Of a stretch of DNA of 64,000 nt, positions 84-60,600 are shown in pieces. Origin of the DNA: Rhodocyclales bacterium (GTDB lineage Bacteria > Pseudomonadota > Gammaproteobacteria > Burkholderiales > Rhodocyclaceae); contig JAPLQY010000114.1 of NCBI GenBank assembly GCA_026399475.1, positions 1 to 64,000 on the forward strand, written 5' to 3'. The first letter of the stretch is position 1; the number at the start of each line of letters is the position of its first letter. Made by a program: the position numbers and the translations under genes. The notes beneath the pieces were generated by a model. The model ran no database searches and was not told the DNA's origin. It worked only from the letters and a program-made list of their open reading frames with translations.

Positions 84-105
84 AGTCGGCGCTGGCGGCA
101 CGGTG
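84..105 (+). repeat. 22-bp dispersed repeat, copy 1
   Basis: This intergenic copy reads AGTCGGCGCTGGCG, then GC, then ACGGTG. It lies just upstream of the predicted higBA promoter. It belongs to a family with eleven clear members in this window. Confidence 0.8.
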
Positions 106-120
106 AAGCGTTGATTGATA

Positions 121-149
121 TTGATGCGTGTGCCGTTACGCGATACAAT
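121..149 (+). promoter_or_regulatory. Predicted sigma-70 promoter of higBA
   Basis: A -35 box TTGATG (121-126) and a -10 box TACAAT (144-149) are separated by 17 bases. The expected transcription start falls at or next to the higB ATG at 155, and no Shine-Dalgarno sequence precedes that ATG. The higB message may therefore be leaderless. This is a prediction from spacing only. Confidence 0.45.
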
Positions 150-154
150 GAACC

Positions 155-436
155 ATGATCAGGACGTTCCGGCATAAGGGGCTGCAAGCCTTTTTCGAGA
201 AAGGGACCAAGGCCGGTATTCAAGCCGCCCATGCCCCGCGACTGGCCGCCATGCTGCGACGCCTGAACGAAACGACCAATGTCCAGGGGATGAACTTGCC
301 AGGCTGGGGCTTGCATCCGCTGAAGGGCCGAGAACTCAAGGGACATTACTCGGTGACGGTGAACGGCAACTGGCGCATGACCTTCACCTTCGATGGAACT
401 GACGCCGTGTTGGTGGATTATCAGGACTACCACTGA
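155..436 (+). CDS. higB: HigB-type toxin (RelE/ParE superfamily mRNA interferase)
   Basis: A 93-residue protein with the usual HigB layout: an N-terminal MIRTFRHKGL strand-helix, a central LPGWGLHPLKG segment and a C-terminal WRMTFTFDGTDAVLVDYQDYH-like strand pair that ends the toxin fold. Known HigB/RelE proteins cut mRNA on the ribosome. It comes first in the operon, 13 bases before the antitoxin start at 450, the toxin-first order typical of higBA. The ATG at 155 has no visible ribosome-binding site, which fits a possible leaderless transcript. The gene lies outside the integrated element, in the chromosomal flank. Confidence 0.85.
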   Translation: MIRTFRHKGLQAFFEKGTKAGIQAAHAPRLAAMLRRLNETTNVQGMNLPGWGLHPLKGRELKGHYSVTVNGNWRMTFTFDGTDAVLVDYQDYH

Positions 437-56516: not shown

Positions 56517-56530
56517 CGTTAGGTCAGAGC

Positions 56531-57688
56531 TTACGAAAACAAACGCAGCGCCCGGGTGCTGCCCGGGGCGATGCCGCCGTCGCGCATGCGCTGCTGCAGT
56601 TCGACCGTCTTGGCGCGAATCGCATCGATCATGGCGTCGGACAGCGGTGCGCGCTGGGCATCGACCAGCAGTCCGCCCAGGGCGGCCGCGAGTTGCCGCG
56701 CGATCGCCAGCATGCGGTCGAAGGCCGCGACGCCGTCCGTCACGCGCGGCACATCCAGGCTCAGGGTCAGGCCATGGGTCGCCAGCGATTTGATCGTCTC
56801 GGTCTCGAAGCGCTCGGCGCCGAGATTGGCCACGGTGAACAGTTCGCCGCCGGCCTCGTCGCGGGCACGGAACACGCCATCGCCTTCGAGAACCAGCCCT
56901 GCCGCCTCGGCCACGCCGCGCAGCTTGGTGCCGGCGAAGACGCCTCCGGCAGCTTCCACGACATGCAGCACGAACTGGATGTCCACCGCGGCGCAGAATT
57001 CATCGAGCTTGGCGGCACGCATCACGGTTTCGCCGCGCGACGGTAGTTCCACCGTCGCCGCGGTCTGCTGCGCGACATGCTGCACGCCGTCGAAGAAGCG
57101 CGCCAGTTCGCCGTCAGACACCGGCCCGCGCCGATCGACCAGTTGCAGCGCGGCAGCCCATTCGCGGTAACGCCCGGTATCGTGGGCATCGAGCTGCCGC
57201 CACGCGCCGTCGGTATCGTCCCTGGCCAGCCAGTGGATTGGCTTGCTCAGTTCCGCCGCCCATGCCTTCTGCATGGCCTGGACGGCAGGCGCCGGCAGCG
57301 GCTCGGCAGCGGTAAGGCGCAGCACGCAATCCGCCACGGCATCGGCGCAGTCGGCGGGCAGCGGCGATACTGATTCCTCTGGCGTCGACGGCAGGTCGGC
57401 GACAGGCTCGGCAGCTCCGGCTGCGCCCGGCGCCTCCGGCAAGGCATCGGCGGCATCACCGAAGTACGGCTCCTGCCATTCTCCGGGTTCTCCCTGGCCA
57501 GCCGCCGTCGGTGCAGCGACCGTGGCTGCTTCCTCCCCGGTCAGCAGCGCATCGCCCTGCCCGCCCTTGAATATCCTGTCGGCGGTCTTGCGGTGCTGGC
57601 GGTCCTGCCAGACGTTGTACCCCCAGACCAGGGCCACCCCGGCCGCGCCGGCACCGATCAAGGCGATTTGCAGTTCGCTGATCACCAT
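56531..57688 (-). CDS. zipA: Cell-division protein ZipA
   Basis: A 385-residue ZipA. One N-terminal membrane helix ([19 protein letters not shown]) is followed by a basic segment, a long acidic Ala/Pro-rich linker (about 40-160) and the C-terminal FtsZ-binding domain (about 240-385, [16 protein letters not shown] and [13 protein letters not shown]). It tethers the FtsZ ring to the membrane. ATG 57688 is chosen since upstream in-frame sequence is a shadow of smc. The smc gene ends two bases before it. Confidence 0.88.
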
Positions 57689-57690
57689 GT

Positions 57691-60600
57691 TCAAGCCACC
57701 TTCTGATCGTCGGCGAGGCGCAACGCCTCTTCGATGTCGACTTCCACCACGCGCGACACGCCCTGTTCCTGCATGGTCACTCCGATCAGCTGCTGGGCCA
57801 TTTCCATGGCGATCTTGTTGTGCGAAATGAAGACGAACTGGGTTTGCACCGACATGCGTTTGACCATGTCGCAAAAACGCACCGTATTCGAATCGTCCAG
57901 TGGTGCATCGACTTCGTCGAGCATGCAGAATGGCGCCGGATTCAACTGGAACAGCGCGAACACGAGGGCAATTGCGGTCAGCGCTTTTTCACCGCCGGAG
58001 AGCAAATGGATCGTGGTGTTCTTCTTGCCCGGCGGCTGCGCCATGATCTGGATGCCGGCATCGAGAATCTCGTCGCCGGTCAAGATCAGCCGCGCTTCGC
58101 CGCCGCCGAACAGTTGCGGAAACAGCGTGCCGAAATGCGTGTTGACCGAGTTGTAGGTCTCCTGCAACTGCTCGCGCGTTTCGCGGTCGATGCGGCGGAT
58201 GGCGTCTTCCAGCGTGCCGATCGCCTCGGCCAGGTCGATCGATTGCGCATCGAGATAGCCCTTGCGCTCGGAGGCCGTGGCCAGCTCTTCCAGCGCCGCG
58301 AGATTGACCGGACCGAGCGTCTCGATTTCGGCCGTGAGCCGCGCAATGTCGCCTTGCAGGACATTGTCCTTGAGCCGATCGGCGCCGCCGGCGGCCAGTT
58401 CCTCGGCGAAGGGCGCTTCATCTTCCTCGCTGACGACATGTACTTCGGCCAGCCGTTCGCGGAATTGATCTTCGTTGATCTGGGCGGCCTGTGCCTTGAG
58501 CCTGAGGTCGTTGATCTTGTCGCGCAAGGGAACGATGCCCTGCTCCAGCTTCATGCGCTGCTCGTCGAGGCTGCGCAGCTCGCCGGCGGCCGTTTCGAGC
58601 ACATTGCGCCGTTCCGCCAGCGCCGACTCCTTGCCCTGCTTCGCGTCCAGCGCGGTGTGCAACTGTTCCTGCAACACCGTATCGCTGATGCCGGCCACTT
58701 CGGTGCGCGCGGCGCGGGTCTCGCCCTCGACGCGTTGCAACTGGCTGGTCGCCGTCGCCGCGGCGCGGGCGTTGTCCTCGAGCTTCGACAGGCACTCGCG
58801 CTCGGAGAAGCCTGCCTCCTGGGCTTCGCGCCCGAGCTGGATTTCGAGCGCCCTGGCTTCGCGCAGGGCCGCATCCTTCAGACGATGGATTTCGAGCGCC
58901 TGTTCGAGGCGTTCGCGCACTTCGCCGAGGCGCTCGCGCTGCAATTCGCCTTCGGTCTCGGCGCGCTCGCGACGAGCCTGTTCGGTTTCGTCCTGGCGCT
59001 GCAGCTCGGCCAGATCGCGATCGATCTGCGCCGAGCGTTCCTCGAAGCGGGCCTGCGCCTGGGTGAGCTTCAGTGCCTCGACCTGCGCCGCATGAAATGC
59101 CTGCTGCGCCTCCTGCATCGTGCGCCGCCCGGCGCTGAGCTGGGCCTGGCTGTCCGCCAGGTGCTGCTCGGCCACGCGCTGCACTTCGCGCGCCGCGTCT
59201 TCCGCCGCGGCGCGCGCCGTCAGCAGGCCGGCGAGCTCGTCGATCTCGCGCTGGCGTTCGATGACGCCGTGGGTTTTCGCATCCGGCACATACAACGTGA
59301 GGTCGGCGGGGGTCAGCAGATGACCGGCACGGGAGACGCGCTGTCCGCTGGCCAGCGGCAATTCGGTCGCCAGATCGTCGGCAACGGAGACGCCGGCAAG
59401 CCATTCATCGAGCACGCCCGACCAGCGCGGATCGTCGCAGCGCAGGCGGTCAGCGCCGAGAAGCGCTCGCGCAGTACGGCTTCGACCGCGGTTTCCCAGC
59501 CGGCCTCGACCTGGATCGCCTGCCACAGAGGCTTGGCATCGGCCAGATGGCGCGCCTTGAGCCAGTCGCCGATCTCGCCGCTTTGCGCCACGCGCGCCTG
59601 CAAATGCGCCAGCGCATCATGGCGGGCGCGGGTTTCGGTCAGGCTGCGATGCGCAGCCTGCAGGGCTTCGCGCGCCGTGCGCAGCTGCGCCTCGGCCGCA
59701 GGTATGGCGCCTTGCAGCGCCGCCAAACGTTCCTGCGCCAGTGCCAGCGCTTCTTCGGCACGCCGCTCGTTTTCCTGCGATGCGGCGAGCAATGCCGGAT
59801 CGGGTGCGCCGAGCGCCTGCCGGTCCTGCTCCAATCGGCTGCGGCGCTGCGCCAGGTTTTCCAGTGCGCGCTGGGCGTGCCCCTTGTCGGCCTCGGCCAG
59901 GCGCAATGCCTGCTCCGCCTCGCTCAAGCTCCGGCGCGCCTCGGTGACGTCGCTGCCGGCGGCCTGCACGGCATCCTCGGCATCGGGCAGCCGCGCGGCG
60001 GCTTCCTCATGGCGGGCGGTGGCGGTGGCGGACCGGGTGCGCGAATTTTCCAGCAGCAGGTTCCAGCGCGCTTCGTCCTCCGCCAACTGGCTTTGCTGCG
60101 CCTGCCAGTGGGCTTGCTCGGCGTCCAACTGGGCCAGGCGCGCTTCCAGCCGCGAGCGCGAATCGCGCAAATGGCCGATTTCGGATTCGAGGCGACTGAC
60201 TTCGGTGTTGGCCGCGAACATCTCGGCCTGCGCCGCATGCAAGGCGTCCGAGGCCGAATAATGGCTTTCGCGCGCATGTTCGACGCGCGCCTCGATCTCA
60301 CGCAGCTGCGCAGTTTCGCCCTCGACGCGATTGACGGCTTCCTCCACCTGGCGCGCCAGGCGCTGGCTGTCGTGCTTGGCGTCGTTGCGCTTCTTCAGCC
60401 AGAGCAGGGTCTGCTTGTGCGACATCTGCTGCTGCAGGTCGCGATACTGCTGCGCCACCGCAGCCTGTCCCTGCAGGTGGTTGACCTGAACTTCCAGCTC
60501 GTTGCGGATGTCATCGACGCGGGCAATGTTCTCGCGTGCATCTTCGAGGCGGTGTTCGGTTTCCTTGCGGCGTTCCTTGTACTTCGTGACGCCGGCCGCT

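Follow-up and report, generated by a model that had tools for sequence, protein, structure and literature searches.

The DNA analysed here (hereafter the window) comprises positions 1 to 64,000 of contig JAPLQY010000114.1 from a Rhodocyclales bacterium (assembly GCA_026399475.1) and encodes, among others, a HigBA pair, a molybdopterin oxidoreductase, a hydrogenase-like protein, Mfd and 3-deoxy-D-arabino-heptulosonate 7-phosphate (DAHP) synthase. At one place (L102) it is 88.9% identical to a Sulfuritalea metagenome-assembled genome, and the genus is therefore taken to be Sulfuritalea or a close relative. Within and between these genes lies a recurrent word of about 25 letters, RAA-AGTCGGCGCTGGCG-RN-ACGGCG, which is the subject of this study. 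With up to three mismatches to the pattern AGTCGGCGCTGGCGNNACGGCG, the window contains 13 sites versus 0.09 expected from dinucleotide shuffling (largest shuffle 1). A preliminary description, made from the letters of the window, had listed eleven copies of a 22-bp core, all of which were recovered at the same places and on the same strands with 0-2 mismatches; those at 5427 and 63521 are additional.

Table 1. Copies of the repeated word in the 64-kb window and the genes next to the first copy
Feature	Position	Strand	Mismatches	Context
motif copy	84..105	+	1	intergenic, upstream of higBA
HigB	155-436			gene downstream of motif copy 84
HigA-like	393-761			gene downstream of motif copy 84
motif copy	5427..5448	+	3	intergenic
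motif copy	15745..15766	+	1	VGAG frame in 2224-aa open reading frame (ORF) with PBECR3 nuclease-like domain
motif copy	27448..27469	+	1	VGAG frame in alpha/beta hydrolase
motif copy	34891..34912	+	0	antisense in molybdopterin oxidoreductase gene (32197-35181, -)
motif copy	39010..39031	-	2	intergenic
motif copy	41223..41244	-	0	VGAG frame in hydrogenase-like ORF (40953-42821, -)
motif copy	45420..45441	+	1	upstream of mfd
motif copy	46496..46517	+	2	VGAG frame, length-variable part of mfd
motif copy	49672..49693	+	1	ESALA-type frame (ESVLAGRR) in DAHP synthase gene
motif copy	52957..52978	-	0	ESALA frame in phosphoribosyltransferase gene (52494-53039, -)
motif copy	58607..58628	-	0	ESALA frame in SMC_N-domain ORF (57691-59526, -)
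motif copy	63521..63542	-	3	VGAG frame in histidine kinase/Hpt protein gene

Genic copies had been described as occupying two reading frames, which holds for seven of the eleven originally listed (four read as VGAG and three as ESALA); the copy at 34891 lies antisense within its gene, and all six frames are used in a relative with a complete genome, G002. The restriction of changes to transitions proved to be a tendency, seen in 74 of 89 one-mismatch sites. Two intergenic copies had furthermore been placed just upstream of promoters. This fits the higBA copy, with a promoter-like pair (121-149) starting 15 bp past its end. The mfd copy stops 5 bp short of a TATAAT read from the sequence and would thus cover part of the -35 region instead of lying ahead of the promoter; the mfd TATAAT promoter was not called in a promoter scan.

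Among 194 sites from 119 public loci that deviate from the pattern at no more than one position, conservation reaches three bases upstream of the core (A in 0.67, 0.86 and 0.74), position 15 holds a purine in 0.91, and only weak preferences occur farther out. Logos built from exact sub-words of one complete relative, which leave the remaining positions unselected, returned the 22 positions unchanged, a weaker upstream A tract (0.31, 0.59 and 0.51) and A at position 23 in 0.57. One-mismatch sites (n=89) show no mismatch at positions 1, 3-6, 11, 18 and 19, and the motif is not a palindrome. The mismatch spectrum is sharply bimodal, with 32, 29, 15, 4 and 9 sites at 0 to 4 mismatches versus 0, 0, 0, 1 and 7 for the reversed word, and no sites above background at four or more mismatches.

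The copies are not confined to the window. The source genome (4.21 Mb in 114 contigs) contains 305 (152 on the plus and 153 on the minus strand; reversed control 4), and the 3,802,648-bp G002 contains 302 exact copies (148 forward and 154 reverse; control 0). The density of sites is about one per 14 kb in the source genome and about one per 5 kb in G002. On both strands the word thus exceeds chance by orders of magnitude across the genome. The 100 forward copies listed for G002 span 0-2.44 Mb without a one-sided block, as judged by eye; a replication-linked strand bias of the type known from FtsK orienting polar sequences (KOPS) was rejected on the near-equal strand counts of G002 and the lack of any visible bias towards the terminus. 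Counts also exceed those in codon-preserving shuffles, a comparison suggested in the preliminary description, both in the window (13 observed versus 1.65; maximum 5 in 20 shuffles) and in the window plus 400 kb of G002 (93 versus about 10.2). As this control retains the peptides that the motif itself makes, it overestimates chance. Of these 93 sites, 65 fall in predicted genes, covering all six frames, one lies at an edge, and 27 are intergenic, about twice the share expected from ~15% non-coding bases, as placed by a crude gene caller that misplaced at least one site (the plus-strand copy 49672 in the DAHP synthase gene) and called the copy upstream of mfd in-gene.

All 31 genomes searched from the same Sulfuritalea-like genus carry 95-824 copies at up to three mismatches, a spread that is partly due to incomplete assemblies. 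At the same threshold, six other genera of the family are at control level, three with one exact copy each. When 297 genomes of the family were surveyed, with one mismatch allowed, six genera proved dense (genomes with at least 30 sites: 12/13, 1/1, 1/1, 10/11, 4/4 and 9/9) and all other genomes contain 0-15 sites; G293 has none despite belonging to a dense genus. The distribution is patchy and genus-bound, with five dense genera besides the Sulfuritalea-like one. Contigs with exact copies are named mostly as Sulfuritalea, Rhodocyclaceae and Rhodocyclales, with few Rugosibacter, Sulfurisoma and others, among the 80 listed of at least 119 matches. Four motif-poor relatives (60-68% GC) yielded no site at up to three mismatches in 260 kb of stretches. 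Tight clusters of the motif were observed in otherwise motif-poor genomes (G135:C1:1461265-1502264, G109:C104, G183:C148 and G076:C1:564284-584605), that of G135 with copper oxidase, metal ATPase and resistance-nodulation-division (RND) efflux genes and the G109 contigs with restriction-modification genes; these clusters are perhaps DNA from motif-rich donors.

A dialect of this clade-bound word was found in one related genus. G098 contains 122 sites within two mismatches of a form with A at position 6, A occupies that position in every site listed, and the commonest 12-mers are of the AAAAGTCGACGC type (12 copies in 106 kb versus 0.04 expected). A de novo search detected no similar dialect in stretches of G293 (40 kb), G068 (80 kb), G089 (80 kb) and G107 (60 kb). 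In G089 (L421-L424), 12-mers such as AGCCCCGACGGC are over-represented (6 versus 0.08 expected), perhaps representing another repeated word in that genus.

G017, which falls within the Sulfuritalea-like genus in an mfd tree (weak support, 0.40), has 1, 12, 33 and 49 sites at 0, 1, 2 and 3 mismatches. Ten of its 30 fetched loci could be aligned, and the partner site had at most two mismatches in 10 of 11 alignments, seven of the 11 involving loci chosen for an exact motif. When G017 was compared with unselected stretches of G002, all four alignments showed 0-1 mismatch in G002. The alignments indicate that the copies in G017 have decayed.

The word is furthermore strongly enriched in phage contigs, some of which carry lysogeny genes. 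Among IMG/VR contigs, the exact word occurs in at least 120 stretches, the reversed word in none and the dialect in one. The 120 viral loci, which are fragments, form 63 clusters of up to 28 members, and five resemble the cellular DNA compared. One site is present in 76 loci, two in 30 and three to six in 14. Of twenty proteins from six viral loci, 13 match PHROGs, including tail protein J, primase/polymerase, terminase, integrase and a CI-like repressor. Locus L176 contains five motif copies between 885 and 2218, with a spacing of 316 bp among four of them and of 385 bp to the fifth, an arrangement that resembles a tandem repeat within the phage contig.

We interpret the repeat as a sequence of the uptake-signal type that serves natural transformation, in what would be a third bacterial family, a reading to which we assign a probability of roughly 0.6. 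Of the three roles considered in the preliminary description (uptake signal, chromosome-organising site and mobile mini-repeat), this one agrees best with the dialect, the carriage by phages and the decay in a single species. During natural transformation, the word would be recognised by a receptor on the cell surface, probably a type IV minor pilin, which would so favour DNA from close kin, after which the incoming strand would pass ComEC and recombine. Word-bearing fragments would replace word-free ones, and such a recombination drive could build and repair copies wherever proteins tolerate them. Temperate phages, presumably resident in these hosts, may gain copies by the same route. Where the receptor was lost or changed, copies would decay, as might be the case in G017, or drift to a dialect, as perhaps in G098.

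Binding by a cytoplasmic chromosome-organising or DNA-maintenance protein, with selection acting at hundreds of places round the chromosome, would also produce numerous dispersed copies on both strands, many of them kept in place between species. It would agree with the spacing of the sites, which is slightly more even than random (coefficient of variation 0.81 versus 0.96, P 0.04; P 0.05 at up to one mismatch). Nevertheless, we consider this role unlikely: no replichore strand bias supports it, the word is also found in phage contigs of many clusters, and copy number varies widely within one genus (95 to 824, in part through incomplete assemblies). Moreover, by our estimate about 13 bits are enough to single out 742 sites within 7.6 Mb of strand, whereas the motif carries about 30 or more. 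Such an excess over what addressing requires is expected of sites that are driven and not merely bound.

The presence of the word in both host and phage DNA, together with its genus-bound distribution and dialect, could alternatively reflect a mark by which a system of defence or repair, Chi-like or linked to modification, tells self from non-self and which phages copy to pass as self. Most viral loci carry a single copy, however, and Chi-type sites are short, far denser and strand-biased, making this explanation improbable.

The third role, a mobile mini-repeat resembling repetitive extragenic palindromic (REP) sequences or miniature inverted-repeat transposable elements (MITEs), bears on the fate of individual copies between species. 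Orthologous stretches were compared at 105 distinct sites in 318 pairs, leaving out loci L320-L408, viral loci, pairs of more than 96% identity and high-scoring segment pairs of less than 300 bases. The site was retained with 0-1 mismatch in 204 pairs, 2-3 in 46 and four or more in eight, a kept share that is inflated by the many loci chosen for an exact motif. The remainder comprised 59 partial gaps and one clean gap, compared with 162 partial and one clean gap in 1368 control windows; the choice of loci has less bearing on the scarcity of clean gaps. A wider test including the length-variable mfd stretch, which dominates its outcome, gave gaps in 200 of 338 pairs versus 139 of 1690 for the control. 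Copies mostly persist in place and evolve by substitution rather than insertion.

Individual copies illustrate this range. The word at 41223 retains 0-1 mismatch in six of seven relatives and has three in G017, which, along with the use of six frames, bears out the conservation at the DNA level proposed in the preliminary description. Copy 27448 occurs at the same place in G002, G005, G014, G018 and a member of another genus (G061), is split by 24 inserted bp in G008 and G030, and is gone in G017. The site in the DAHP synthase gene (49672) is gap-free in 14 orthologues, 11 with 1-2 mismatches, one with three and two with six; the last two (G008 and G019) encode a near-identical peptide (ETVLAGRR) using other codons. 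The intergenic copy 39010 has two mismatches in G002 and G005 and is gapped in G014, G017 and G018, the region upstream of mfd with copy 45420 varies widely between relatives, and the mfd stretch around 46496 differs in length and contains other repeats in some relatives. Short repeat-like pieces of the GCGGTATCC and GCCCTGAGCC types are inserted at or inside motif-bearing gene stretches, at 46496 and 27448 in the window and in orthologues (L329, L338, L340, L341 and G008/G030).

Insertion as a mini-repeat would account for the copies in length-variable places of the mfd and hydrolase genes, for the higher frequency of partial gaps at motif sites and for the bimodal mismatch spectrum. It is nonetheless very improbable, given a single clean gap among the aligned pairs, only weakly biased flanks, the lack of a palindrome or of an apparent target duplication in the flanks inspected, and the DAHP synthase copy, which makes use of a conserved peptide in place. 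A by-product of codon usage or composition, although parts of the word are favoured by GC-rich codons, is refuted by the codon-preserving shuffles, the motif-poor relatives of 60-68% GC and the nearly empty reversed controls.

Several observations weigh against the uptake-signal reading. The density is low and the motif long beside known uptake signals, and inverted pairs, a common though not defining trait of those signals, where they act as terminators, are not a habit (four neighbouring pairs within 800 bp among the 93 sites, the closest 445 bp apart). The bimodal mismatch spectrum implies that births from random sequence are rarely caught and that the intermediates of a gradual drive are scarce. 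In addition, relatives retain the intergenic copies 39010 and 45420 poorly, and motif sites show partial gaps more often than control windows do. The remaining points concern the competence machinery. ComEC, whose presence agrees with the reading, was identified in 24 of the 25 genomes tested (all but the motif-poor G100). It is also present in eight of nine motif-poor genera tested and in G017. Its occurrence therefore accounts for neither the distribution of the word nor its decay, and the idea that copies in G017 decayed because ComEC was lost was rejected.

The receptor search covered the ComP_DUS and GspH families in 24 genomes and, among those listed, prepilin signatures in 13 genomes, with reciprocal best hits run over 117 pilin-like ORFs. 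ComP_DUS-family pilins occur in 23 of the 24 genomes and FimT/GspH-family pilins in 22, motif-rich and motif-poor alike. An adjacent pair of ComP-like and FimT-like genes is strongly divergent between some species that share the motif, with identities of 38% and 28% between G002 and the source genome (G000) and 65% and 72% between the latter and G005. In G002 these two genes are followed by ORFs that, from their order and N-termini, we take to be pilV, pilW, pilX and pilY1. Just two prepilin signatures were listed for the dialect genome G098, one of which is presumably GspG. Among the pilins listed for the 13 genomes, no family follows the motif. Two families of ~250-aa pilins were rejected as the receptor, both being present in motif-poor species too. 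In several genera, translations of a ~250-aa prepilin gene (L501, L526, L511 and L520) contain a motif-like stretch, read xPAPx, just before the N-methylation site.

As no pilin tested follows the motif, the receptor of an uptake system in these bacteria may be neither ComP-like nor ComN-like. In this more specific form, which we propose tentatively and hold at slightly below even odds, Rhodocyclaceae would possess an uptake-signal system of independent origin, the third of its kind, with a core that is continuous over ~22-25 bp, dialects of its own and signal-carrying temperate phages.

An excerpt of PMC12616744 names two families only as known to have uptake signals. In the open-licence literature, we found no paper containing GTCGGCGCTGGCG, none joining 'DNA uptake sequence' with 'Rhodocyclaceae', and, among the matches listed for Sulfuritalea repeats, no such motif by title; the matches listed in a broader search included no title on uptake. 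An uptake signal in Rhodocyclaceae would thus be new if our reading is right. With environmental bacteria as a third case, one could compare three lineages for how such signals originate, for their receptors and for the drive behind their spread. The motif may also serve as a marker of gene flow, since small clusters of it are conspicuous in motif-poor relatives, and it might help to link phages with their hosts.

Further features of the sequences were noted. At 13421-20095, the window encodes the 2224-aa ORF with a phage-type PBECR3 nuclease domain, located towards the same end as HigBA and a methylase-like gene; this end is possibly a mobile region. With 9% contamination and two mfd genes that are 89% identical (G000:C45 and C53), the source bin (G000) probably mixes two related species. 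Stretches L270-L289 of G002 contain a second repeat, AATCTGCG(c/t)AAATCTGCGAAATCTGCGGAT, apparently mostly intergenic; CAGATTTC occurs 22 times in 400 kb of G002 (reversed control 0), some of the 22 being unrelated single words.

Among known repeated words, KOPS, Chi and matS-type sites likewise occur in many copies round the chromosome. These sites are short and/or biased by strand or region, whereas the motif described here is long and lacks such bias. By GTDB, Rhodocyclaceae and Neisseriaceae belong to the same order. The available part of PMC12616744 gives ca. 9-12 nt for the DNA uptake sequences (DUS) of Neisseriaceae and the uptake signal sequences (USS) of Pasteurellaceae, with USS extending up to 32 nt with AT tracts. 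The motif, a candidate uptake signal, is unrelated in sequence to either and less dense. It differs from DUS in its length (~25 bp versus ca. 12) and in having no habit of inverted pairs, and from USS in belonging to another class of Proteobacteria and in an A-rich flank that lies upstream rather than downstream. With USS (Hin-USS and Apl-USS, candidate receptor ComN) it shares a signal that exceeds the core, an A-rich flank and dialects; temperate phages of Pasteurellaceae accumulate their hosts' USS, according to an excerpt of PMC6776037, and a corresponding pairing of phages and hosts is presumed here. As with DUS, whose receptor is ComP, the word is found on both strands, within and between genes, and is bound to a clade, repeated many times and accompanied by a dialect; for Neisseriaceae, the consulted parts of PMC3630211 and PMC12616744 describe hundreds to thousands of copies and several dialects.

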